From Diplonema papillatum (taxonomy: Eukaryota > Euglenozoa > Diplonemea > Diplonemida > Diplonemidae), in assembly GCA_030068145.1 (NCBI GenBank), contig JAPJBO010001107.1, positions 1 through 64,000 on the forward strand: a DNA stretch of 64,000 bases. Direction: 5' to 3'. The notes beneath the pieces were generated by a model. That model was given only the letters and a program-made list of their open reading frames with translations. It was not told the origin of the DNA and made no database searches. Shown in pieces: positions 12,649-57,700 of this stretch (within the stretch, counting starts at the first letter, position 1; every line of letters starts with the position of its first letter). The position numbers and the translations under genes are program-made.

Positions 12649-13021
12649 ATGCTCCCGGCCATCGGGTTCTACAAGCGGCACGCCGTGCGAGCCATGGGCG
12701 ACCAGATGCTGAGCATCGGCACGGCGAACGCCCTCGGGCTGCCGCCTCGGGAGGTCACGACGGTGCTGGTGGCCTTCGCGCAGACCCGCGTCGAGCACCG
12801 GCCGTTCTTCGACTTCATCCGGCCCGTCCTGCAGCAGAACGCGGCCTGCCTCAGCGGGAAGGAAGCGGCGTTCGCGCTCGAAGCGTCGCGAAGGGTCGGC
12901 ATGGCGGACCAACTCCTGGTTGGAACCCTCGTTTCGCGCTTCGTCGAAGCAACCGAGGCTGACATCGAGAGTAAAGCCCGTTTTTCTCGCCTGCTTTGCA
13001 TCGAAGTCGCACACTGTGCAA
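12649..13021 (+). CDS. Helical-repeat protein, exon 1
   Basis: First exon of a large split gene (exons 12649-13021, 13949-15343, 24754-26567). It encodes about 124 residues from the first ATG after an in-frame TGA near 12612. Residues fall into amphipathic helix pairs, for example around REVTTVLVAFAQTR and KEAAFALEASRRVG. This is the look of octotricopeptide/heptatricopeptide (OPR, RAP/FAST-type) repeats, a class that usually binds organellar RNA. Codons are strongly GC-ending, unlike the flanks. The exon ends at a good 5' splice site (GTATGT at 13022) in phase 1, and joining to 13949 restores an Asn codon and an open frame. A spliced-leader acceptor or an upstream exon is also possible, because several AGs lie within 20 bases of the ATG. 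Function is inferred from fold-like pattern only; no named orthologue is recognised. Confidence 0.6.
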
Positions 13022-13057
13022 GTATGTCCTCTTTTCCAGCAAACTTGTTCGAGCGCC

Positions 13058-13141
13058 GCCGCAGCCGGAACACGCCGCCAAGTCGCTGCAGATGGGCGGC
13101 GAGGCCCGGTGCCACCCGGAGACGGTGCCGCGGCACGGCCA
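13058..13141 (+). pseudogene. Exon-2 fragment, diverged copy
   Basis: About 84 bp matching exon 2 at roughly 14154-14237, the helix beginning PEHAAKSL. It has several substitutions (PEHAAKSLQMGGEARCHPETV versus the exon's PEHAAKSLRMLGEARCRPATV) and no intact exon borders. It sits directly after exon 1, so it reads as the oldest of the duplicated pieces in this intron. Confidence 0.55.
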
Positions 13142-13144
13142 TAG

Positions 13145-13263
13145 GAACACTCAGGCTCTGACCGAACCTTTTCTGACACTCAGGCTCTGACCGAACCTTT
13201 TCTGACACTCAGGCTCTGACCGAACCTTTTCTGACACTCAGGCTCTGGCCGAACCTTTTCTGA
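13145..13263 (+). repeat. 29-bp tandem repeat, 4 copies
   Basis: Four nearly perfect head-to-tail copies of a 29-bp unit beginning CACTCAGGCTCTGACCGAAC. The last copy has one A-to-G change. A single further partial copy (CAGGCTCTGACCGAACCTTT) occurs at about 13623, after the exon-2 pseudo-copy. This suggests the unit was once spread across the duplicated segment. Confidence 0.8.
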
Positions 13264-13373
13264 CAAAGGTCACCGAGAGACTTTGTACCGCCGGATTACT
13301 AAGCGAACTTACACTCTAACAACGAGAAAAAACGAGAAACAGTCAGCACACACGCAACACCGCTCTCTCCCAT

Positions 13374-13610
13374 TCACCCCCGCACTGCAGATCTCTGTCG
13401 GCACCACGATCCGCAGCTCACCCGGCTGCTGTTCGCAGTCCTGCGCGGGTATCCGTACTTCACGCACAACTCGTTCTTCTCGACGATCTACTACCTGTTC
13501 AAGGCAGAAGGCGGGCGGGCCGTGCGGCGGTTCGTCGACTCTGATCGAAGACAAGCGGCTGGCGCCGCTGCGGCAGCCCGAGCACGCCGCGAAGTCGCTC
13601 ACCCCCTTTG
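13374..13610 (+). pseudogene. Frameshifted copy of exon 2 start
   Basis: Near-identical to 13936-14190, including about 50 bp of the upstream intron with its acceptor. Relative to exon 2 it lacks 24 bp between two TTCGTCGAC repeats plus 2 bp just after. The net 26-bp loss shifts the frame. After the AAGTCGCT stretch it runs into unrelated sequence. The acceptor looks usable, so inclusion would give a truncated product. Confidence 0.75.
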
Positions 13611-13948
13611 TGCCCTTGTGCCCAGGCTCTGACCGAACCTTTCACCGGTGCACAATCTCCGAGTCAAAAGACCCAGACGTAAGAAACCACTCTGAAAAGA
13701 CGTTGGCAAAAATAAAGTAAGTCGAATAGCAGCAGTAGGCAATACAGACACCCACCCAAGAACACGTACTGCCACAACCGCAGATACGATACGCATACTA
13801 GTATACGATACCTCAAAAGGGACCTTTTCGACAATGGCCACCCAGAGACTTTAAGCTTCCGGATTCCTAAGCGAACTTACACTCTAAAAACGAGAAACAG
13901 TCAGAACACACGCAACACCGCTCTCTCCCATTCACCCCCACACTGCAG

Positions 13949-15343
13949 ATCTCTGTCGGCACCACGATCCGCAGCTCACCCGGCTGCTGTTCGCAGTCCT
14001 GCGCGGGTATCCGTACTTCACGCACAACTCGTTCTTCTCGACGATCTACTACCTGTTCAAGGCAGAAGGCGGGCAGGCCGTGCGGCGGTTCGTCGACGAG
14101 AACGCGTCCGACTTCGTCGACTCGCTGATCGAAGACAAGCGGCTGGCGCCGCTGCGGCAGCCCGAGCACGCCGCGAAGTCGCTGCGGATGCTCGGCGAGG
14201 CCCGGTGCCGCCCAGCGACGGTGCTGCGGCACGTGCGGACGCTAACGGCGCACTACTTCGCGCAACTCACGCTGTGGGAGGCGGCGGAGATCGCCCGCTG
14301 CCTCGCGTGCCTGCACGGCCGCGGAGCGGCCCCTCCGACGGCCCCGCCCACGACAAAGGCAGACCCGCCGTCCAACGCAGCCCGCGACAACAGCAGCAAG
14401 CAATCCCTCGTCAGCCCGAAACATCAGGTTTCCACAACCACCACGAAGCCATCTGCTCCGACACCCCCGTCCGCCACAAAAACAAACCCACCGTCCAACA
14501 ACATCAACATCCAACCTCCGGTCAACCCAGAACAGCAAGTTCCCGCACCCACCACGAAAGTACCTGCTCCGACACTTCCGCCCGCAACAAAAACAGATCC
14601 ACCTTCCTGCAACAACCGACCCCCCGTCAACCCAGAACAGCAAGCTCCCCCGCCCCCCATGCAACCACCTGCTCCGGTGCCCCCGCCCACAACAACGGCA
14701 GACCCGCCCTCCGACGCACCCTGCAACAACAACCACCAACCCCCCGTCAACCCGGAACAGCAAGTTCCCGCACCCGCCGCGAAAGCACCTGCTCCGGCAC
14801 CCCCCGCAACAAAAGCAGACCCGCCCTCCAACACACCCTACGGCAGCAACCAACCCGCCGTCAGCCCGGAACAGCAACTTCCCTCACCCACCGCGCAAAA
14901 CGCATCTAGGGTCCACGAACCGCGCTCTCCCGCGCCGCTGGATCGGGATGGCGAAGAAGCCGGCGTGCCGTCCCGCGTCTACGACACGCTCGCCGGGATC
15001 ATTTGCCGCGACCTGCAGTACTGCGCCGGGAAGCTCGCCTCGACGAGCGACGTGGCCGCGGCCGCGAGGGAGAGGGGCGTGCTGCCCGTGTACAAGACGC
15101 GGTTCCGGCCGGCTGCCGGCGGGGCCGTCAAGCCGCTGGTGCCGGCCGAACAAGCGCTCGCGCTGCTGGTGGCGCTGGCCGCGTGCCAGCGGGGGGACCC
15201 GGACGTGCAGGGCGCCTTCTTCGCCCCGGTGCTGCGCGGCGTGCTCGCGTTCCTCGACGCTGCGGTTCGGGAGGGGCTGCTTCGGCTGCTCTGCAGCGAG
15301 ACGAGCAAAATGGTTGTCATTCTTGGTGTGTTGCTTCATTCAC
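13949..15343 (+). CDS. Helical-repeat protein, exon 2, with Pro-rich linker
   Basis: Starts after CACTGCAG and continues exon 1 in frame. The first part (about 120 residues, LCRHHDPQLTRLL to ARCLACL) is alpha-helical repeat. The middle (14326-14910) is a low-complexity Pro/Thr/Ala linker made of five degenerate 35-40 residue repeats around DPPS, PPVNPEQQ and PAPT. The last part, from about 14942, returns to helices (VYDTLAGIICRDL; AEQALALLVALAACQ). The frame stays open to a TGA at 15367-15369. I place the donor at 15344 (GTTGTC), because it leaves phase 1 and matches the phase of exon 3. A donor after AAAATG at 15313 is an alternative but does not match that phase. The linker probably separates two helical arrays. 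Assignment to the OPR/RAP-like class is inference. Confidence 0.6.
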
Positions 15344-15422
15344 GTTGTCTTTTTATTGTCATAGATTGACAAACTCCTTTTCAGAAGTTGTTGAAATTGC
15401 CCATTTTTTTTCACAACTTGAC

Positions 15423-15526
15423 TGTGTGTGCGAAGGACCTGTTTTGTATCTTTACATGGCAGGTTCCAACGCTGCCAACTTTCTTTTTTGTACTGACATG
15501 TCCAGCGTGGTATGTTGTTCCAAAAA
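15423..15526 (+). repeat. 104-bp terminal repeat, 3' copy (A2)
   Basis: Begins TGTGTGTGCGAAGGACCTG and ends GTTGTTCCAAAAAA on the plus strand. It matches 19445-19548 along its length at an offset of 4,022 bp. It lies about 400 bp beyond the RT stop, as expected for the inner A repeat of an A1-ORFs-B1-A2-B2 arrangement. Confidence 0.8.
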
Positions 15527-15923
15527 AGAAAAGGCGTCGTTGAGCACGTGTACCCCTTTTACGTCGGTAAGTACAAGAGTCGTTGGAAGTTGGAAGAGGA
15601 AGATCGCCGAACCACTCTTCGGTCTTTTTTAGTACTGCTGCTTGTTGGCTCTTGCCGTGCAGTAATTTTAGTCTTGTCATATAACAACTTCGCTCGTTGT
15701 GGCCTCTCGGCATTGTTTGCTGGAAAACTCTGTCGGGACTGCCGAAAGAATCTTCGCAGGCTGGTCCTCAGTTCTTACTGGGGACTGTGAGACATGTTGC
15801 AGACGCGTCACATCACTCGGAGAAGCGCTTGTGATAACGGCAATGAGCTGCCAGTAAGGCGCTACGAGGCCGAGGTCAAGCAAGGGCCAGCACAATGGGT
15901 TGCGTCAAAGAAAATCAAAGCTT

Positions 15924-18446
15924 CTAGAGGAGGGACCCAGACCAGCGTCTTTGGTAGGCCATCCGGGTGAATTTATCGGCCACATTAAGGGATCCAGGGA
16001 CGTGCATAGCCTCGACAAAATTTCGGTCCAGAAGTTCAACCAGCTCATCGAGTAGTTCTTGCGTCTCAGATATCAGGGAATAACCTTTATTCAGGATAGC
16101 GACCACAGTTGTGTTGTCCACCTCGATCTGAATCCTGAACCGGATGCCCGGTACGCAAATTCGTTTTACTGCCTGGACCGCCGCGTATAACTCTTTTATG
16201 TTGATGTGGCTTTTAGTATAGCGATTCGGGAAAACACCGTGGGCAATGCTCTTTTCGGTAAGAACGTAAGCCCATCCCGACATAGACGCGTCGGAGACAG
16301 TCCGAACCGTGCATTCCGGCCGCAGCCACCGTTTCCAGCTGTTCGAGGCTAGTATGTCGACCTCTCTCGTGAGTATGGAACGGACAGGGTCCGGGATATC
16401 GCAGAGGGCGCTCCAAGCGATGTCCGGAGCGGAAACGGAGGACATCCAGCCCAACAACGTCTTGACGTGGTGGAGAGGCCGAGCCATGACGTGGTACCGC
16501 CACATGATACAGCCTGCGACTCGCCAAAAATCTCTCAACGGGGACCTGCAGCGGAGTACCAATTGGAGGGCTGGCACAACGTTTTGAACCCACGTAGTGC
16601 TCAGTCTCCACTTCTTGTCTTGGAGATTCACTTCCATTCCAAGGAGCGAGGCTTCGGACGTCGGTCGGCCTTCCTCACCAAGTACAATTCCGTATCGGTC
16701 GCACAGCGAACACAATCGTCTTTGGGTGTTCCACAACTTTTCCTCGTGTATGTCTCCGAGTATGAAATTGTCGATCCACTCGATGTGAACCGAAGAAGGA
16801 GAACTCTTCGCCGCAAGTCCACCGATAGACTCGGCCACAGCTTGGCTCGCTTGAGGTGCTGGCGAGTAACCCATCGGTAGCCGAGTTAACCTGCGTTTCG
16901 CAGACCCGACTCTAAACGAGAAAAACTTTCTCACTGAGGTCGGCAGCAAAAACTGGTAAAAAAAACCTTTCGCGTCATTCTCACAAACGAAGTTACATTG
17001 CATGAGTTTCAGCAGCATTGAGTTGTACGAGGGAAGGTGGCATGGCGGAACCGGGTGTCCCGACATTCTCACCGCTTCATTCACCCCCTTGCACGAGAGA
17101 ATGAACCTGAGTACCCCGGCCTTCTTTTTAGCAACTGTGAAGGCGCCGTGGAACCAGGATCTTTCCGCCTCCGACCGGGGGACTGCCTCACAGAGACCGA
17201 TTTCCTCTAGTCTTTTAAGGTGCTGTTTCAACTTAGTGTTAGGGGGGCCTGGGGCGTTCTTGAACTCGGTCGAAAGGATATCCTCGAGGAAAGCGGGATT
17301 TCGAAACCACTTCAAATTGATCTCTAAGGCAGGGAAGTCTCGTAGCAACAGGTCAGTGTCCACCCACGATTCAGTGATGCTGTCGACGAGGCCCTCAAAG
17401 CAGGCCTTTGTGGCACGGGAGCCTCGGGGCATCTCGTGGTCCACCCACCTCATGGCGTAATCATATGTATGCAGTTTACTTAAGCTGCGGGCCACATTAG
17501 GAGCCCAGAAGGGACGGTCGAAACCTACTGCAGAATTCCGGCCCCCCGGATTGTTCCGCTCGTCGACTCCCAAGTCTCCATCGGGGTATAGAACCTCACG
17601 TTCTTCACGTCTACGTGCCTCCCCATTGCTTGCGCCGCTTGTTCGCCACCCACCCGGGCGATCTCGGTGAGTGCACTGTGGCGAATCATGTGACTGGTGA
17701 CCCCAAGATGGCCTCTGAGCCACTTGTTGTAGGCTGCGATGCTTAGGCCCGGAAGCAGGAGAGTTGATCTCTGTCGTCTCCACCAGCTGATCACGGTCTG
17801 GAACACCCATCCCGTCTTCGGTATGAGGATCCCTTGACCTTGGTGCGTAGGGTCGGTCTTCCCCCCTACGAGAAGTACGAGGAAAAACTCTTGTTTCTCC
17901 TTTATGTGTCCGACCTGGAGACGTTCCAGGTCCACAAAACGAGACGCGAGGCTCCATTGGGCGGCCAACGCCACCTTGTATAACCCTGTGGATTTCGCCA
18001 GCAGTCCAAGAACCTGGCTCTTGGAGACCAGTTTCGTCTCCAGGAGTTCCCTTCTCTCGAGCTCTCTCTCCTTCAAGTGCAGTGCTTTTCGAAAAGCCTT
18101 TAGCGGGGGGATATCGGCCATCATCCAGTATGTCACGTACTGGCTGGCTGAGCCTGGTTGGATTTCCTTCGCATCGATTTTTCGTTGCAGCCACATGAGG
18201 AAACCCATCTCTCTTGAGATTTCCGGGTCCAACTGTCGTAGCTGCTGAATGAATAGCTGAGCCCGGGTCACCACCGACGTCATAGCCGAGGAGGTAGTGT
18301 CTTTGTAACACTCGGCCAGCGTTCTCAACGTCTCTTGACGCAGCCCCTGGACAGCCTCTGGGCTGATCAGGTAGTCGGCCTTCTGGGGGCGGCCCCGACT
18401 CCGCTTCAGCGGTTGGAGAGGACTTGGCGCGGGGGGAGTCGTTCAT
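15924..18446 (-). CDS. Reverse transcriptase-RNase H of the retroelement
   Basis: 840 codons from an ATG overlapping the gag stop. Residues 1-307 overlap the recombinase gene and look like a shadow reading (Gly/Arg/Pro-rich, no domain). The real protein probably begins near residue 308-332 (MRWVDHEMPR). RT motif A is CENDAKGFF (Asp491), motif B is LPMGYSPAPQASQ, and motif C is EWIDNFILG, where the usual second Asp is Asn560. RNase H follows with its four acidic residues in VSDASMSG (Asp719), NIKELYAA (Glu752), EVDNTTV (Asp777) and NVADKFTR (Asp824). The Asp-Asn-Thr signature is typical of DIRS/Ngaro-type RNase H. No protease or methylase is present. Reading is -1 relative to gag/YR. Confidence 0.85.
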   Translation of the reverse strand: MNDSPRAKSSPTAEAESGPPPEGRLPDQPRGCPGAASRDVENAGRVLQRHYLLGYDVGGDPGSAIHSAATTVGPGNLKRDGFPHVAATKNRCEGNPTRLSQPVRDILDDGRYPPAKGFSKSTALEGERAREKGTPGDETGLQEPGSWTAGEIHRVIQGGVGRPMEPRVSFCGPGTSPGRTHKGETRVFPRTSRRGEDRPYAPRSRDPHTEDGMGVPDRDQLVETTEINSPASGPKHRSLQQVAQRPSWGHQSHDSPQCTHRDRPGGWRTSGASNGEARRREEREVLYPDGDLGVDERNNPGGRNSAVGFDRPFWAPNVARSLSKLHTYDYAMRWVDHEMPRGSRATKACFEGLVDSITESWVDTDLLLRDFPALEINLKWFRNPAFLEDILSTEFKNAPGPPNTKLKQHLKRLEEIGLCEAVPRSEAERSWFHGAFTVAKKKAGVLRFILSCKGVNEAVRMSGHPVPPCHLPSYNSMLLKLMQCNFVCENDAKGFFYQFLLPTSVRKFFSFRVGSAKRRLTRLPMGYSPAPQASQAVAESIGGLAAKSSPSSVHIEWIDNFILGDIHEEKLWNTQRRLCSLCDRYGIVLGEEGRPTSEASLLGMEVNLQDKKWRLSTTWVQNVVPALQLVLRCRSPLRDFWRVAGCIMWRYHVMARPLHHVKTLLGWMSSVSAPDIAWSALCDIPDPVRSILTREVDILASNSWKRWLRPECTVRTVSDASMSGWAYVLTEKSIAHGVFPNRYTKSHINIKELYAAVQAVKRICVPGIRFRIQIEVDNTTVVAILNKGYSLISETQELLDELVELLDRNFVEAMHVPGSLNVADKFTRMAYQRRWSGSLL
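17525..18283 (-). CDS. Tyrosine recombinase of the retroelement
   Basis: Integrates the cDNA circle by site-specific recombination in place of an integrase. The frame is open from immediately after the gag TGA (18442) to 17525, 305 codons, but the first ATG is at 18283; the span given uses it. Catalytic residues are recognisable: Arg in SLASRFVDL, Lys in the GGKTDP hairpin, HxxR in TSHMIRHSAL, His in AMGRHVD and the nucleophile Tyr in NVRFYTP. This completes the R-K-HxxR-H-Y set of the phage-integrase fold. The gene lies wholly inside the 5' third of the RT ORF in a different frame, and in the same frame as gag. Expression may be by stop readthrough, reinitiation at the internal ATG or a subgenomic RNA; the sequence does not decide. 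Confidence 0.85.
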   Translation of the reverse strand: MTSVVTRAQLFIQQLRQLDPEISREMGFLMWLQRKIDAKEIQPGSASQYVTYWMMADIPPLKAFRKALHLKERELERRELLETKLVSKSQVLGLLAKSTGLYKVALAAQWSLASRFVDLERLQVGHIKEKQEFFLVLLVGGKTDPTHQGQGILIPKTGWVFQTVISWWRRQRSTLLLPGLSIAAYNKWLRGHLGVTSHMIRHSALTEIARVGGEQAAQAMGRHVDVKNVRFYTPMETWESTSGTIRGAGILQ

Positions 18447-19423
18447 ACGGACTTCCGCCCGTTTCCCGACTTCGAGAGGGTTTCGGTCCTTCTCCTCTTG
18501 GAGAATTCACCTTCGGACGAGGCTCTCTTGAGCCCGTCCGTGTTCCTCCTTCTCCTGTCCTCCTCGTTGGCCACCTCGACAGCTCGCAGGGCGTTTCTTA
18601 ACACTGTGCGAGAGAACTCAGAGGCATCTACCAACTGCAGCTTGGACTCCCAAGCCAGTTGTTGAGGCATACCCTGCAGCTTGCGGATTCTTAGGGCCTC
18701 GAGGCGAACCAGCAGTTGATGGGCAACCTGTAGGACTTGTCTCGAGTCCTTCGGCACAGGGAGGAGTCTGTCCAAGACAGAAAACAGGACACGGGTCTCG
18801 TGCACGTACGCAGGTACACTGGCCTTGAAGTCTTCTTCAATGGGCCCGTAACGGTAGCGCACTTCGGTCATCATCTGACTCTTCTGGTTAGAGGTTGCAA
18901 CCTTCGGTACCCATGAGTTTGCCATTCGTATGTCAAACTCTCCAATTCCCTCTTGGGTTTTGGTTTGGGCAAGAAGATGTTCTACGAGCGCCTTTAAGGG
19001 CCCTGGTGGTGTTTGTTCGAGCAATTCGTCGACGTCGACGCCGGCGATGTTTGAGCCCGGGTTCGGACGGCTCTCGAGTACTGCGTCCACGCCTTCCATC
19101 TCCCGATCGTCCTCCCACTTCTGACCCCGCTGCAGAAGCCACGTACAGACCGGGCAGACCCATTCGTCTTCCCCCATTCGGTCCACGAAGCCCTGGGCAG
19201 TGCTCTTGCACCCCAGGTTTGCCTTCAGGCAATACGCGATCGCCGTGAGGCCGCATCTGAAGCAGTGGGTCAGCCCTTCCCCGGCATGGCTCTTTGAGCA
19301 CATCGGGAAAATGCAAGCGCCGTCTTCCTCGGCTCGGATAATTCCCGGGGGCACCGACACCTTCGTCTGGATCGAAGACCAGTCGAAAGAGCCCCCGTCG
19401 AAGTCGCTTCTCAGAACGGACAT
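18443..19423 (-). CDS. Gag-like protein with PHD/RING-type zinc finger
   Basis: 326 residues from the ATG at 19423, the first Met after the terminal repeat. Residues 37-93 hold eight cysteines (37, 42, 54, 57, 65, 72, 90, 93) ending in WVCPVC, the usual end of a PHD finger. This is a cross-brace type zinc module rather than the CCHC knuckle of most Gags. The rest is mostly helical, with a basic Arg/Lys-rich tail (KRASSEGEFSKRRR). The stop TGA overlaps the ATG of the following ORF (ATGA). The reading frame simply continues after this TGA into the recombinase, so a readthrough Gag-YR fusion is possible. A nucleic-acid-binding or particle role is inferred from position. A chromatin-reading role is speculative. 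Confidence 0.65.
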   Translation of the reverse strand: MSVLRSDFDGGSFDWSSIQTKVSVPPGIIRAEEDGACIFPMCSKSHAGEGLTHCFRCGLTAIAYCLKANLGCKSTAQGFVDRMGEDEWVCPVCTWLLQRGQKWEDDREMEGVDAVLESRPNPGSNIAGVDVDELLEQTPPGPLKALVEHLLAQTKTQEGIGEFDIRMANSWVPKVATSNQKSQMMTEVRYRYGPIEEDFKASVPAYVHETRVLFSVLDRLLPVPKDSRQVLQVAHQLLVRLEALRIRKLQGMPQQLAWESKLQLVDASEFSRTVLRNALRAVEVANEEDRRRRNTDGLKRASSEGEFSKRRRTETLSKSGNGRKSV

Positions 19424-19444
19424 ATTTTTAGCACGTGTTTTATG

Positions 19445-19548
19445 TGTGTGTGCGAAGGACCTGTTTTGTATCTTTACATGGCAGGTTCCAACGCTGCCAA
19501 CTTTCTTTTTTGTACTGACATGTCCAGCGTGGTATGTTGTTCCAAAAA
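19445..19548 (+). repeat. 104-bp terminal repeat, 5' copy (A1)
   Basis: Second copy of the element's direct repeat. The gag start codon lies only about 22 bp inside it, so this repeat probably carries the promoter and most of the 5' UTR. It runs into an A-tract at 19543-19555. Confidence 0.75.
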
Positions 19549-19554
19549 AAAAAA

Positions 19555-20597
19555 ATCTTGAAATTTTGTGAAAAAACGTCAAGGTAGTAGCTGCAGTTTC
19601 TGTGCTTTCCTGGTTGCTCACACGGCAAATAAAGCTCGGCGAGGGCTCCGCAAACGTGGTGAGAAGAAGCGGCGGACACCCGCCACGGCACGACCCCCTT
19701 CTGCGGCCGCTACGACGTTCACGCCTTCGACTACCCTGAGCAACGCACTGTGCACAGAGTCGGTGTCTACGTAACAGCAGATGGGTCGCTGCGGGGGCGG
19801 CTCACGCCTGACAATCACTCTACTGCAACAAACGCCCACCCTGTGACAATCAGATGAGCCTGATCGTGAGGTGCCTGTAAAGACCAGATGCCTGTAAATA
19901 TCAGATGCCTGTAACGAACAGATGCCTGTGAGGGACAAATGTCTGGGAGAACGCCTGTAGTCACTACTGAGCGAGGCCTATAGCGAGCAGATTCCTGCAA
20001 TGAACAGTTGCCTGCTATGCGCAGATGCCTGTCGACAGATCCTGTTATGAACAGACGAAACGCTCGGATGGAATGGTGCAAGTGCGTAAACACCACAGGA
20101 CAAAAAGTACATGTGCGCCGGTAAAGACCGGCGCCCAGCGAGATTCGAACCCGGACGAGGCACTTTTCCGGTCGACAATGATTTTCGGGGTTTGTAAAGT
20201 TCGGAAAACAGCAAAGTTCGGGCGAAACTAAGTTGCTAAGATGCAAAAGCAAAGTTCGGGCGAAGTTGACTTCTGGTGAAGCAAAGTTCGGGCGATGCTC
20301 AGTTCTGGTAGACTGACTCACGTTACCCAAGGGGACCCAAAGACCGCGAGTTATTGAGAAACTCTGCAAAAAACAAAAATTTCGGTGTGCCTCGTGTTGT
20401 GCGGGTGTTTTGTATCCCGTGAAGTTCTTTTCTGGTGCAATCCGACGAGACTGGCGCCGAGTTTTGTCTCACAGCTGGTTTCCTTGGGCTGCAACCTTAA
20501 GGGAGAGGCAACGACAGGCGCAATTCACCTCAAAAAAGACCACACACCCCCACTCAAGGACAGTGCACATTCACTATTTTTTACAAAATTTCAAGAT
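19555..20597. repeat. Repeat-rich block with 15-bp inverted ends
   Basis: ATCTTGAAATTTTGT at 19555-19569 recurs inverted at 20583-20597, about 1 kb away, each beside A/T runs. Inside are a minisatellite around CAGATGCCTGTAA (19860-20060, about 10 degenerate copies), four copies of GCAAAGTTCGGGCGA (20195-20300), a perfect hairpin GCGCCGGTAAAGACCGGCGC (about 20115-20134) and a B-box-like GGGTTCGAATC on the minus strand (20140-20152). It has the size and ends of a small non-autonomous element, but no coding capacity or target duplication was found. Confidence 0.3.
19589..19612 (+). other. Spliced-leader-like 24-mer
   Basis: AGCTGCAGTTTCTGTGCTTT followed by CCTG and then GT (19613). From memory, the 3' half of the diplonemid spliced-leader exon differs from this by four transitions in 24 positions and is also followed by GT. 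The 5' half is poorly matched, and I see no Sm site or T-tract typical of an SL RNA gene downstream. At most this is a relic or retroposed leader; chance is possible. Confidence 0.25.
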
Positions 20598-20860
20598 CTT
20601 TCTTTTTTCTTTTTTACACAAAGATGTAAGAAAGAAGTAGTTAATTTTGAAAAACATGTGGAAAAATGCAAAGATCTTTGTAAATCCATGTATTGTGGGA
20701 GTGTGCGTTGGAGCTCAGTTGTGGGTCATCCCTGCGTGGTGCCCGTCTTAGCGAGCGAGTGTCCACGAGTGTGTGTGGCGGACTCATTTTCACGTGGCGC
20801 CCCCCTTAGCGAGAGTGTGTCCACGCGAGTGTGTGTGTGTGAGTGTTGGAGTCTCTTCTG

Positions 20861-21166
20861 AGCGACGTGGCCGCGGCCGCGAGGGAGAGGGGCGTGCTGC
20901 CCGTGTACAAGACGCGGTTCCAGCCGGCTGCCGGCGGGGCCGTCAAGCCGCTGGTGCCGGCCGAACAAGCGCTCGCGCTGTTGGTGGCGCTGGCCGCGTG
21001 CCAGCGGGGGGACCCGGACGTGCAGGGCGCCTTCGCCCCGGTGCTGCGCGGCGTGGTCGCGTTCCTCGACGCTGCGGTTCGGGAGGGGCTGCTTCGGCTG
21101 CTCTGCAGCGAGACGAGCAAAATGGTTGTCATTCTTGGTGTGTTGCTTCATTCACGTTGTCTTTTT
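20861..21166 (+). pseudogene. Copy of exon 2 end, first
   Basis: Matches 15050-15350 almost base for base, from the codons SDVAAAARERG through TSKMVVILG and on past the proposed donor. One TTC codon is lost and there are few substitutions, so the frame stays open. The left breakpoint joins GT-rich spacer; the preceding CTCTTCTGAG could act as an acceptor, but in the wrong phase to follow exon 2. It lacks the rest of the exon. Confidence 0.75.
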
Positions 21167-21638
21167 TGTGTGGGAGTGTGCGTGTGTTGGAGCTCAGTTG
21201 TGGGTCATCCCTGCGTGGTGCCCGTCTTAGCGAGAGTGTCCACGAGTGTGTGTGGCGGACTCATTTTAGCTTGGCGCCCCCCTTAACGAGAGTGTGTCCA
21301 CGCGAGTGTGTGTGTTGCGGACCCGTTTTAACGTGGTGCCTCCCTTCACCAAAGTACGACCACGCTCATTTTTGGCCAGGTAACGGCCGGTGCACCCCCG
21401 GACTGGGAGTGGGGGTCTCTGTTCACTCTTCTGTTTGCATGGTGCTTCGGGCAGCAGCTGGCTAATGCTTCGTTTGCTACTACGCAATCGCCGCAGCGTC
21501 CTAGTCTGTGAGCTGTGCATAAGTGCATCAGCGGCCGTAGACCATCCGATCCGTGATGATGCTGCTTGAGGCGACAGCAGGTCTCCGCCGGTGTGTGTGT
21601 GTGTGTGTGTGAGTGTGTGAGTGTTGGAGTCTCTTCTG

Positions 21639-21930
21639 AGCGACGTGGCCGCGGCCGAGAGGGAGAGGGGCGTGCTGCCCGTGTACAAGACGCGGTTCCG
21701 GCCGGCTGCCGGCGGGGCCGTCAAGCCGCTGGTGCCGGCCGAACACGCGCTGGTGGCGCTGGCCGCGTGCCAGCGGGGGGACCCGGACGTGCAGGGCGCC
21801 TTCTTCGCCCCGGTGCTGCGCGGCGTGCTCGCGTTCCTCGACGCTGCAGTTCGGGAGGGGCTGCTTCGGCTGCTCTGCAGCGAGACGAGCAAAATGGTTG
21901 ACATGCTTGGCGTGTTGCTTGATTCAGGTT
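21639..21930 (+). pseudogene. Copy of exon 2 end, second
   Basis: Third occurrence of the 0.3-kb exon-2 tail. It has a 9-bp in-frame deletion in the AEQALALLVALAA helix and several changes after the donor point (GTTGACATGCTTGG). Its left junction, CTCTTCTGAGCGACGTGG, is identical to that of the 20861 copy, so the two share an ancestor that was already truncated. Confidence 0.75.
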
Positions 21931-22626
21931 GTCTTTGTGTGGGTGAGTGTGTGAGTGCTGGAATCCCTTCTGTTTCTTCACTATAAACGGAGATGCAGGA
22001 GCGCCGGACATTTTCGAAGGGGGGAGTACAAAAAGGGGGCAAAACGGTGGAGCCTGCGTTTTGTCAGTTTTTGCTTTTCCCTCCAACCTCGCTTTGGCGA
22101 GTGGATATGGGGAGTACGCTCAGAAACGTAAGGGTTCCAGCTTGACGCGCCGAAGGCGCTCAAGCAAGCTTGCTGTGTGTTATGGACCCGTTTTTCAACG
22201 TAGCGCCTCCCTTCACGAAAGTACGACCACGCTGCGTGGGTGTGTGTGTGTGTGTATGTGTGTTAGAATTCATGTATGGGTAACCCCTGCTGCGGAGTAT
22301 GGCCCAGGCCGTAGGCTTCCTCACGTCACAGCTGATGCTCCTTCTTGCTGCTCGTGATGACCACGCGCTGTCCGGAACTGTAGCTTTGTTTGACAATGGC
22401 TCCCCGCTTCGTGTCCCGTGTGCTGCTGGCTGCAACATGTATCCGGGGGAGGCGGCTTCTTGTGCACACGGAGCAGCGAGCCGCGTCGTGTTTGGAACAC
22501 TTCGCTTTCTTATTCCCTGCTCGCTGCACTGTAGCTGCCCTTCTCTGCTGTGTGTTGAAGCTCAGTTGTGCGTAAGTGTACGCGTTATGCGCAGTAGGCT
22601 GCAGCCACCAGTAGGCGGCACCACGA

Positions 22627-24753: not shown

Positions 24754-26567
24754 AGTCGCTGCATATGATGAACGACGGAAAGCCACTGAAAGACGCGACC
24801 TTCCTCGCTACTGCGATGCTGGAAAGGCTGGCCGGGAGCACGAAGCGTGAGTGGGACACGCCAGACGTGTGCAAGATAGTAGAGCTGTGCGGCGAGCTGC
24901 GCTGCGACGTCGGCGGCCCGGTGGCGCGGGTCTCGTCGCTGCTGGTCGAGAGCGTCGGCAGCCCGCGGTGCCGGTGGCCCGCCGACGAGCTGTGCCGCCT
25001 GCTGCGGGGCATCTGCTTCTTCGACCCCCATCCCATACTCGCAGAAAGCCTCGCGAAGGTCACACACCAGCGTTTCGAGGAGCAGGAGCGCGCCGCCGCC
25101 ACCGAACGCGTGATGCTCGGCGAAACCCCCGCCGCAACCCGTCCCCCGCCCTCCGCGCCGAAACACGGCGCAGCCGGGACCCGTGCGGCACTTCCTTGCA
25201 ATCCCCCACCCTCCCCGCCGCCTCCGCACGCCTCCACGCTCATGCGAATCCTCGAGAAGCAGCCGAAGGGCGGTCTCCCGGCTCCGGATGCGGACCGGGC
25301 CGCGGGCACTCACCGCAGCGCCCGGGGATCGACGCCGGACGCCGCAGCCCAAAAGCTGACCGCCTCCGGCCTGACTGCACTCGCGTCTGCGGAGCGGATG
25401 CTCCGGGGCAAGGGCAGGTCGCACGCCCTCGCGTACAGGGGGACACTTCAGGCGCTGGCGTGGGTTAATTCGGCGCTCGGGCTGCGGTGCGAGCCGGGGG
25501 AAATACCGGCGGTCGAAGCGACCCGGATTCGGGACTTGAACAAGATCCTCACCGCCACGCAGCAGGCCGGTCGGCTAGGCCCCGCCGCCGCAGGCGGGCT
25601 GCGGCGGGCGTTTGCGGAGCTGACCCGGAAGGAGCTGGGTAAGGGGATCGGACAAGGCGCTAGGCCCGTCGTCATCGCCGGTATCTCGGCGCTTGCGAAG
25701 GCGAACGCACTCGATCAGGCGTGCCTTGACGCTGGGCTGGAGCTCGTCTGGCAGCGGTCTGGGCCCGGGTACAAGCCGCTGTCGGTCATCGAAGCCGCGT
25801 CCCTGGTGCGCTGCGTCGGCCGGGATCAGCGGCTGCAGGGCGCCAGGCGGCTGGATCGGCTGCTGCGGACGCGGGTGTCGGCGGTCGGTGCGTCGGCGGG
25901 CTGCTGCGCGCAGCTCTTCTCGTTTTTCGCGGCTTCCTCCGGCGCGGCGGCGCCGCCGGCCGTGTTCGCGGCGGCGCTTTCGGCGCTGGACTTAACCCCA
26001 GCTGACTCGCTGTCGATCCTCTACTCGTTGAACGGCCTCGCGTACCCATACGAGGAACACGTCGGGCGGTTGATCGACCGGCTCGTTCGGTTCTTGCGGA
26101 CGTCCTTTTCCACGTCCGCACCCGCGTTCGACGTGTTGGTGGACGCGGTGGAGATCGTCGAAGGGTACCCCGGGCCGTGCTCGGCGGATCTGGTGGCGGC
26201 GGCGCTGCCGCTGTTCGGGCGGCGGGAGTACTCCGCCGGCTTCGCTGTTCTCTCCGCGAGGCGCGCGGGCAAGGTGGTCGTGTCGGTGGCGCGGCACCGG
26301 GTCGCCGCCGGGCCCGAGCGGGCGCCCGACTTGCTGGACGCGTGCCTGCGGCGGGTGGCGGCCGGCATCCGGACGCTTTCCGCGCACTTTGTCCGCAAGT
26401 TCTGCGCGGCCGTCGAGGTCCTGCTGCGGGCCGGCTGGTTCGAGCGCACTGCGGGGCGGCCGCTCCACGTGTTCGCGGCGCGCGTCCGCCGGCTGTCGCT
26501 TCGCCACCCTGGCTTCGACCACCCTGACATCCAAGGCTTCGTCTCTCGGTGGTCCCTACCTGCCTGA
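24754..26567 (+). CDS. Helical-repeat protein, exon 3 and stop
   Basis: Terminal exon, 604 residues to TGA at 26565-26567. Exon 3 opens with a helix resembling the start of the duplicated helix in exon 2 (ESLHMMNDGKP versus KSLRMLGEARC). A Pro/Ala-rich spacer follows (about residues 110-190 of the exon), then about 400 residues of alternating short helices rich in Ala, Leu and Arg (for example RDLNKILTATQQAGR, PVVIAGISALAKA, AFDVLVDAVEIVEG, RAPDLLDACLRRVAAG). The pattern is of OPR/heptatricopeptide type arrays. I do not see a C-terminal RAP domain; the end, HPGFDHPDIQGFVSRW, may be a degenerate cap. GC-ending codons dominate. Such proteins in relatives act in organellar RNA processing or ribosomes; that role is inferred and no targeting peptide was identified. 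Confidence 0.65.
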
Positions 26568-54735: not shown

Positions 54736-57700
54736 GCGGCGGGCAAAAAATAGTAGTGTCATACTAACTTGGCGACACGTGGCTTTGCGGCCTTGGCGAC
54801 TTGTGGGCCTAGACACACCCTGCATGTGGACCAACCTGTGGCACATGTGGGGGAAAAAATAAATCAAAATCCACATGTGGCATCTTTGGATCCACACGTG
54901 GGGGAAAAAAACTCCAAAAAAAATAAGGTGTGGAAATCCAGACGTTCCACACGTGGAGCGTAAGCCCTGCCCCACGTTCAAGGTTGCTCCGACCGCTGCA
55001 CCCTCTGCCGTTGCGCTCGCCGTCGATGAAATTCACCAAAGTGGGTGAGTTCCCCGGATGCGCACAAGCGAAAGAAACGCGCCATGACACTGATTCTTTC
55101 TTGGGAAGCATGCAACGCCCCGAAAAAAAAGAAAAGTGGTCATGGCGTGTTGCGCCTCCTCCCCGTTGGAATGGACACCCGTTATCCCACCCCTCCCCGT
55201 GCTACGGGAGTATCTGGCAACCGCTGCTTAACATGTGGTTCATGTACTTAAAAGAACTCCACGCTTAACAGTGCTCACGTGGGCGGTGTCTTCGGACAGC
55301 ACCTCGCGATGTTCGCATCACAAAACAAAGAAGACAGAAATGGTCGTTACCTGGTCGGGTTTCGCTCGCGACCGTTTCCTGAACAATGCTTCACTAAATC
55401 CGCGGTTAAATAACCTGGCCTCAGTGGTGCAAGCACCACGCGCTCTTCAAACCCAAGAAACATTTTCTCCCCAGGATGGAGCTGCACTTATCTGTCCGCG
55501 CTGATGCCTAGCATGCATGCCAGTTGCACTGCAGAAAATCTGGCAGCTTCCCCCTGAAGGAAGAGTGTGTTCGTGGCTTGCACCGTGGACCATGCACTCT
55601 TACGCACGCCTGGCTTTGTGATACCAGTACGCGGCCAGCTATGGGTGGATCGCTGGAGCATCATCCATTTTCGGGACCGGTGCATTCGGCAGGTGAGTTG
55701 TTACACACTCATTATCGGATGCCGATATCCATGGCCACCGTCCTGCTGTCAAGATGCACCCTTTGTGGGATCTGATGAGCCATCTCGGACAACTTAAGTC
55801 GGCTCTCGGTTCATCCCGCGTCGAAGGACCGAAACACGGTGATAAACAGAGGGGCACATACATACCATTCCAATGAAAGGAAGGGCATAACCCAGCCCAG
55901 GGGTCATCCGATACGACTGCGGCAGCTGCATTTTCTTTAGATTCTTTTTTGAGATTGCGTTTTACCGTTGAGCAGAAGAGCACCCACTCCTGAAGCAACA
56001 CAGCTTTTTCACGCCCCGCCGACTTTCTTTTCCGCCCTCCCGTCTTCCCTCCTCCCTCCCCCTTGTTGGTCGCCTGGTGTGTCGAGCCTTCACATGCTTC
56101 AAAAGACACGCACTTCTTTTTGCGACGTGGGTTCCAGCCATCGTGCCCAACAAGGTTTTCCGGCGCTAGCATCGACACTGGACTGAGCCCACCAGTAGGC
56201 CTTTGCCCTCTCAATAAACATAAATCAAGACCATCCGCGAGACAATCTCTTGTTTACCGACCCCCCCTGGAAGGCAGTGTTGCGCCGAACCATCAAATTA
56301 AGACCTCCCTCCTCTGCGAAGACTTGACGCTACCATCATCGAGAGGCAGCGTTCTGTCTCAACATTCAACTAAAAGACTCCCTCCCCCCGCCCTCAAGAA
56401 GTACAACTGATGATGTGCACCTGCGCGTAAAGCGGTAAAAGAGAAGAAATGAACAATTCCTCGGGGGTGGAGTTCCGTTGCTTTTACGGAGTGTGCTCGA
56501 CCCCCTTTTCTCACCATTCTTCTCGAAGAAGACGTTTGCTTTGACGTGCACGAATAGCACTGTTCTGCCGGAAGCATTAAAACAAGAACTACGACTTACC
56601 CCCTCTCCCCCCCCAGGGTCAAAACCGAATATCAGGCTACGGGTGGTCCTGGCTATGACGAGCTACGAACAGCCGCGCTGTCCTGTCAGCAGACACTCAG
56701 GTTCCGCGCTGATGATGGTCCCCATGTGCCCGTGGCTTCGGGGACCGACACACGGCGCAGACGGGACCAGTGCGGTGTTGAGCACATATCCATTCCAAGC
56801 ACCCCCGGTACGTCTCTACGGGCTTGTGTTCAACGCAAGCGCCACGAGTTTTTACGGAGGTTTTCGGCCGGATTCTAGCAGTACAAGTCGGATGGCGCTC
56901 CGTTGTGCTGTGAGAAGGCAGCTCGAATGCATCCAAAAAACTCCAACGCGCATGAGAGGCAAACTTTCAACTCAGATTTACCGTCTCCCCTCCCCACCTT
57001 TTTAAAGAAGAACGGACGAAGGAAGGAGGAAGTGGAACCATATACCGTATGGTTTCAAACCACGGAGTCCTGGACTCCTTTCCCACACTTTTTCTGCGAA
57101 GCAGACGCACAAAGGGACGGTGCCACGGCATGATTCGGCAGCCGCTGCTAAACGAACATCGGCAGCATAGAGAAAGAAGAACTCCTCTACGGCACCAGAA
57201 AGTCCAAAAAAACCATGGTAAAGAAAGGGTAGAAGGAGAGACTTGATGCTAGCATCAAACACATGAGAGGCAAGCGCCTGAACACGAAACTAAGATTTTC
57301 TCCCCATCCCGAAGTTTCGCACAAAGGGGAGCCCATTCGATAGCAACACACACGGGTGAGGAGCTTGCCTTTCGTTCAGAGGAATAGAGCACTTTTAATG
57401 GGTGCGTCGAGAGCCGCAGCCATCTCAGGCAACTAACTAACTAAGGGGAAGTGCCACGCTGGCATTATCTTCATAGGCGGCTCGCAAGTCTTCCGTTAGT
57501 GCAACTCGGATGACAGGTCCGTTGCATTGGGACGGAAAACTGAGAACCCATTTACCACAGGTCACCCGGATACCGCACAGAGAGAGCCAGTAATGCCGGA
57601 AAGCATTGACACACGGGGTATGACGACTCCTGTCCCTTGACATCAATGTTGGATACTCCTCGGAGAGATGGTCCCTGCACTCTAACTCGTCTCTCTCTCT

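Follow-up and report, generated by a model that had tools for sequence, protein, structure and literature searches.

We analyzed a 64,000-nucleotide stretch of Diplonema papillatum DNA (contig JAPJBO010001107.1; hereafter the window) and found on its minus strand a retrotransposon in which gag and a tyrosine recombinase (YR) share one reading frame, divided by a single TGA, with the frame of the reverse transcriptase (RT) running open through the whole of the YR. Our tentative reading, which we favor while giving it rather less than even confidence, is of a YR retrotransposon with the order Gag-YR-RT/RNase H (RH) whose three products would part at that one junction, by termination of Gag, by −1 frameshifting and by readthrough. 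Because three overlapping genes meet around one stop codon, synthesis of the recombinase and the reverse transcriptase probably requires a departure from standard translation. The features of the element, from its 5′ end, are as follows.

19424..19551, minus strand: 5′ end of the element (a T run, then GGAACAAC) and leader, containing repeat A1; placed by the ends and flanks of genomic copies (below).
19445..19549, minus strand: repeat A1, 105 bp, identical to 15423-15527, with a single mismatch in the T run just outside.
18443..19423, minus strand: gag open reading frame (ORF), 326 codons plus TGA; no Pfam family.
18461..18467, minus strand: G_GGA_AAC, a heptamer in the phase of gag and a candidate site for −1 frameshifting, which would take ribosomes into the RT frame.
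18383..18448, minus strand: GT...AG stretch of 66 nt, noted by eye, whose removal would join gag to the YR in frame; relevant to a disfavored alternative only.
18443..18446, minus strand: ATGA, the ATG of the RT frame overlapping the gag TGA.
17525..18442, minus strand: frame of the tyrosine recombinase, shared with gag and comprising 305 codons plus TAG, first ATG at codon 54; weak profile matches and family alignment.
15924..18446, minus strand: RT ORF, 840 codons, the first ∼305 overlapping the YR in the −1 frame and the remainder assigned to RT and RNase H from weak matches to profiles.
15423..15527, minus strand: repeat A2, 105 bp, identical to A1, downstream of RT.

The original prediction had placed gag and the YR in one frame with a single TGA and 305 open codons beyond it, had noted the lack of an ATG in the first 53 of these, and had pointed to the ATGA shared by gag and RT; the sequence bears out all of this, with the coordinates exact to the base. 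The gag ATG lies at 19423-19421 and its TGA at 18445-18443, the frame past the TGA is open from 18442 to 17528, up to a TAG at 17527-17525, and the RT ORF, in the −1 frame relative to gag and YR, has its ATG at 18446-18444 (ATGA at 18446-18443) and ends at 15924. Two features go beyond that prediction, namely the openness of the RT frame across the whole YR and the −1 heptamer at 18467-18461. We also noted by eye a 15-codon upstream ORF (19474-19521) within repeat A1, ahead of the gag ATG.

The YR frame gave weak matches to Pfam PF00589 (E 0.0015, 18.8 bits with a cut-off of 27.1 bits) and to the phrog_1 integrase (E 5.9e-4), carries an HxxR...Y pattern recognized by eye, and is conserved as a coding frame in the 131 genome matches described below. 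The RT ORF matched PF00078 below the cut-off, and its protein matched the NCBIfam ribonuclease HI model (E 2.6e-4, 20.8 bits with a cut-off of 140); no Pfam match to a methyltransferase was found in it at E 0.1. The gag gene is named from its position alone.

Searching the assembly of the host, 271 Mb in 2910 contigs, yielded at least 131 matches to the YR, with 129 of 809 first-look candidates scored. The family of the window element, or pieces of it, accounts for 34 of the 131 match rows, 18 of them with 100% amino-acid identity across the whole YR, and the other 97 stand at 37-43% identity to the window YR and represent other families, which fall by eye, on match range and frame length and without clustering, into about ten groups. 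The original prediction had proposed asking whether the TGA and the absence of an early ATG are conserved among genomic copies. In all 30 loci of close kin that were compared (L001-L018 and L019-L030) the TGA, the ATGA and GGGAAAC are identical, and the early YR ATG is missing from the 18 identical-YR copies. A stop at the head of the YR recurs in other families as well: with its position bounded as the stop-to-stop frame length minus the matched codons, 87 of the 97 matches have an in-frame stop no more than 15 codons above the position of YR codon 1, which argues that the gag/YR layout is not due to chance. The YR frames at C176:269265-270119 and C794:23101-23940 run for 673 and 640 codons and those of their apparent kin for 308 and 311, and since the excess of 365 and 329 codons comes close to one gag (326 codons in the window), these two copies may carry gag in frame ahead of the YR with the dividing stop lost.

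The alignments to other families also bear on where the recombinase begins. Of the 97 rows, 92 show similarity from query YR codons 4-18 onward and the remaining 5 from codon 25, 29 or 40, and hence all from upstream of the ATG at codon 54. Since conserved YR sequence thus starts ahead of the first ATG, the YR protein probably extends almost to the stop and is entered from upstream.

The RT frame contains no stop across the YR, compared with means of 7.3 under synonymous shuffling (P 5e-5), 8.1 under codon permutation (P 2e-4) and 9.2 with redrawn codons (P 1.5e-4), whereas the third frame has 17 stops, with 16.4 expected under synonymous shuffling. It is open across the YR in all 23 loci with whole flanks, 18 of which are identical there. 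The substitutions that separate the window element from a subfamily (L019-L024) with an intact YR frame (97-99% identical) and with RT broken or replaced downstream show which of the two frames is under constraint. L020 differs from the window by 25 substitutions in the YR, of which 16 are synonymous when read in the YR frame and 3 when read in the RT frame, with ∼26% and ∼27% expected; the comparisons with L019, L020, L022 and L024 all give 24-25 base changes in the YR region, 15-16 of them leaving the YR protein unaltered and 3 the RT-frame residues. Of the 43 changes in the RT core of L019, 29 are silent for RT. Because the changes are mostly silent in the YR frame and rarely so in the RT frame, the YR is the constrained protein and the RT-frame residues across it look unconstrained. 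A frame that is stop-free though its residues are not conserved suggests that ribosomes traverse the YR in the RT frame on their way to RT, making this a clear case of a frame held open for passage and not for its residues.

How ribosomes might enter the RT frame is suggested by the heptamer G_GGA_AAC, which lies 15 nt ahead of the TGA in gag phase, so that slippage on it leads into the RT frame. It is the only X_XXY_YYZ heptamer among the 326 gag codons and falls within the last 21 of these, where the RT frame is open, that frame extending 20 codons upstream of its ATG. On mammalian ribosomes the same heptamer is listed as one of the most shift-prone −1 sites (PMC5009743). A second −1 heptamer, G_GGT_TTC, lies in YR phase at 18200-18206 (YR codons 80-81) and would lead into the RT frame too. 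Given these features, most ribosomes would halt at the TGA and yield Gag, and a minority would shift frame just ahead of it, likeliest by −1 slippage on G_GGA_AAC or alternatively by reinitiation at the overlapping ATG, cross the YR in the RT frame, where the residues would serve for passage only, and go on to make RT/RNase H. Another minority would decode the TGA as sense to give a Gag-YR fusion, a step suggested by the lack of an ATG near the head of the YR; with that ATG missing and only one stop in the way, readthrough would be the simplest route to the recombinase. The more extensive proposal that Gag, Gag-RT and Gag-YR all arise from one mRNA at a three-way junction within ∼25 nt, with the RT frame tunneling stop-free through the YR, and that this layout may hold in about ten related families, seems to us rather doubtful.

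The original prediction had seen the one stop as a possible three-way switch, with RT made by reinitiation. Three frames do diverge at one stop, but the −1 site upstream serves RT at least as well as reinitiation would. In a termination-reinitiation scheme the ribosome would halt at the TGA and step back to the overlapping ATG for RT, with the YR still reached by readthrough. The overlap of stop and start is present in 30 of 30 loci, and couplings at AUGA and UAAUG are known, SART1 coupling its ORFs with a requirement for structure downstream (PMC5972666). The lack of RT-frame stops across the YR counts in favor of this scheme as well, though it fits frameshifting and reinitiation equally. A start at the ATG, however, requires no open RT frame upstream, yet the frame is open for those 20 further codons and holds a canonical heptamer there, and the ATG itself has a weak start context (C at −3). 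We regard reinitiation as unlikely, if still a serious contender; the sole gag heptamer, preceding the TGA and leading into the RT frame, gives −1 frameshifting a slight lead over it as the route to RT.

Alternative routes to the recombinase appear less probable again. Independent initiation of the YR, whether on a transcript of its own or through reinitiation, could use the ATG at codon 54, which has G at −3, or a non-ATG codon just past the stop, against which nothing in the data speaks; the similarity to other families, reaching 36-50 codons upstream of codon 54 in 92 of the 97 rows, argues against the former, and we consider independent initiation improbable. A helix is also predicted ahead of this ATG, at YR residues 28-47, in an AlphaFold model made without an alignment, which is unusable (mean predicted local distance difference test score, pLDDT, 36.5) and hardly counts as evidence. 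More improbable still is splicing, in which an in-frame intron of 66 nt (18448-18383) would take out both the TGA and the RT ATG to give a Gag-YR mRNA, leaving unspliced RNA for Gag and RT. Although GTATGA...CCGCCCCCAG is present and the length is a multiple of 3, the stretch is kept in 30 of 30 loci and spliced out of none, and similarity to other families begins inside it (YR codons 1-20) in 92 of the 97 rows, alignment ends being soft. We also considered that the host might decode TGA as sense, which is unlikely: in the gag-YR frame TGA occurs at the boundary only, with 14 TGG codons, and the long ORFs 24765-26567 and 14080-15369 end in TGA, although neither has a Pfam match and their status as genes is unproven.

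Several observations weigh against the favored reading. The stop context is UGA ACG, which to our knowledge is not among the strong readthrough contexts; UGA CUA is an example of a leaky one. The P values for the heptamer falling where the RT frame is open within gag are modest (0.0099 under permutation and 0.038 under synonymous shuffling) and come from a test picked after the heptamer was seen. Hairpins are predicted around the junction, but in the subfamily the change from ACGACTCC to ACGACACC breaks one pair (pairing judged by eye) without compensation, so that these hairpins do not establish a conserved stimulatory structure downstream of the heptamer. The sameness of the heptamer and the ATGA in the 30 loci is weak evidence, since these loci are near-identical kin and represent the junction of one family. 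Among the other families, 10 of the 97 matches exceed the 15-codon bound for the stop (bounds from 17 to 371, above 30 in 8). Finally, beyond the YR, all five subfamily copies in which it is whole show either a stop in the RT frame or disrupted sequence; with RT broken, the subfamily is uninformative on RT expression, and part of the change in it may postdate the loss of RT.

The copies point to a recently active element. The 18 identical-YR copies have no base differences in the YR and the following 1500 bases, and in gag 8 loci (that of the window included) have no change relative to the window and 10 have one. Their upstream flanks all differ (18 of 18). Apart from the window's own copy there are 17, of which 15 cease to match the window at 19549-19552, beside the T run, and two, L003 and L015, closer to gag. 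Copies L001-L018 start beside T runs at different genomic places. Near-identical copies with differing flanks, and similarity that stops by a T run, suggest that this YR retrotransposon was recently mobile and inserts at T-rich places. Within the window the sole other tblastn match had an E value of 0.92.

The surroundings of the element contain further repeats. Sequences at 15045-15352, 20860-21164 and 21638-21936 are repeated on both sides of it (pairs up to 99% alike), and an inverted repeat pair (19544-19585/20567-20608; 42 nt, 83% complementary), one arm of which adjoins the 5′ end of the element, is possibly another mobile element that served as the target. A 29-bp tandem repeat in four copies lies at 13147-13262, and a 200-nt fragment of eukaryotic large-subunit ribosomal RNA lies on the minus strand at 55605-55803.

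Wider searches gave no confirmed relative among viral contigs (YR and RT queries) or prokaryote genomes (RT query) and none among phages (YR query). By sequence, the PDB held one non-significant match for the YR and none for RT, and Rfam gave none on 15300-20700 at E 1. A single recurrent gag/YR stop combined with an RT frame that extends across the YR was not found in the literature searched, which covered few subscription journals and probably lacked the main reviews of YR elements, and the same search returned no title on readthrough or frameshifting in such elements. In the portions available, papers on YR elements use 'frameshift' for damaged copies or for a YR ORF that lies in a different frame, and they describe no readthrough. 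Control of the ratio of Gag to recombinase to reverse transcriptase thus seems little studied in YR retrotransposons, and the short junction makes the question testable.

Together the gene order, the YR/RT overlap, the direct repeats and the lack of a methyltransferase fit an element of the TATE/VIPER kind. Kinetoplastid TATE/VIPER elements have a Gag-like ORF, a YR and RT/RH, the third ORF being that of RT, and split direct repeats, no methyltransferase being named in the available part of the source (PMC6681497); their YR and RT ORFs are described as overlapped (PMC12278014), and Viper as usually without ORF overlaps (PMC3266345). The window element likewise has the order Gag-YR-RT/RH, with Gag assigned by position and the recombinase, RT and RNase H from weak profile matches, and its YR and RT ORFs overlap. 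Of the split direct repeats A1...B1 A2 B2, the A1/A2 pair is present, with no convincing B1/B2 pair. It differs from TATE/VIPER in the exactly one stop between Gag and YR in one frame, in the ATGA and heptamer at the junction, and in the B repeats not found. A frame shared by Gag and YR is already on record for the TATE of Bodo saltans, where gag, YR and RT form a single ORF in two copies (PMC6681497), and fungal Ngaro elements may carry the YR in the same frame as RT-RH (PMC3783388), so that the original prediction overstated the case in naming only separate or frameshifted YR ORFs.

DIRS1 resembles the window element in having Gag first and a YR ORF that overlaps the pol ORF (PMC3266345, PMC5633606), but the window element shows no methyltransferase and no inverted terminal repeats of the DIRS1 type, the sole inverted pair of at least 20 nt in 13000-22500 (19544-19585/20567-20608, described above) lying almost entirely upstream of it. 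Ngaro elements share with it the split direct repeats, the lack of a methyltransferase and a YR that may use the frame of its neighbor, in their case RT-RH (PMC8547959, PMC3783388), whereas the YR precedes RT/RH in the window element and follows it in Ngaro (PMC8547959). The closest parallel in decoding would be the gag-pol recoding of retroviruses and long terminal repeat elements (PMC5009743), in which the gag stop is bypassed to give Gag-enzyme fusions, as proposed here, and to which the heptamer G_GGA_AAC also belongs. Unlike those elements, the window element has two different enzymes past one stop, in two frames.

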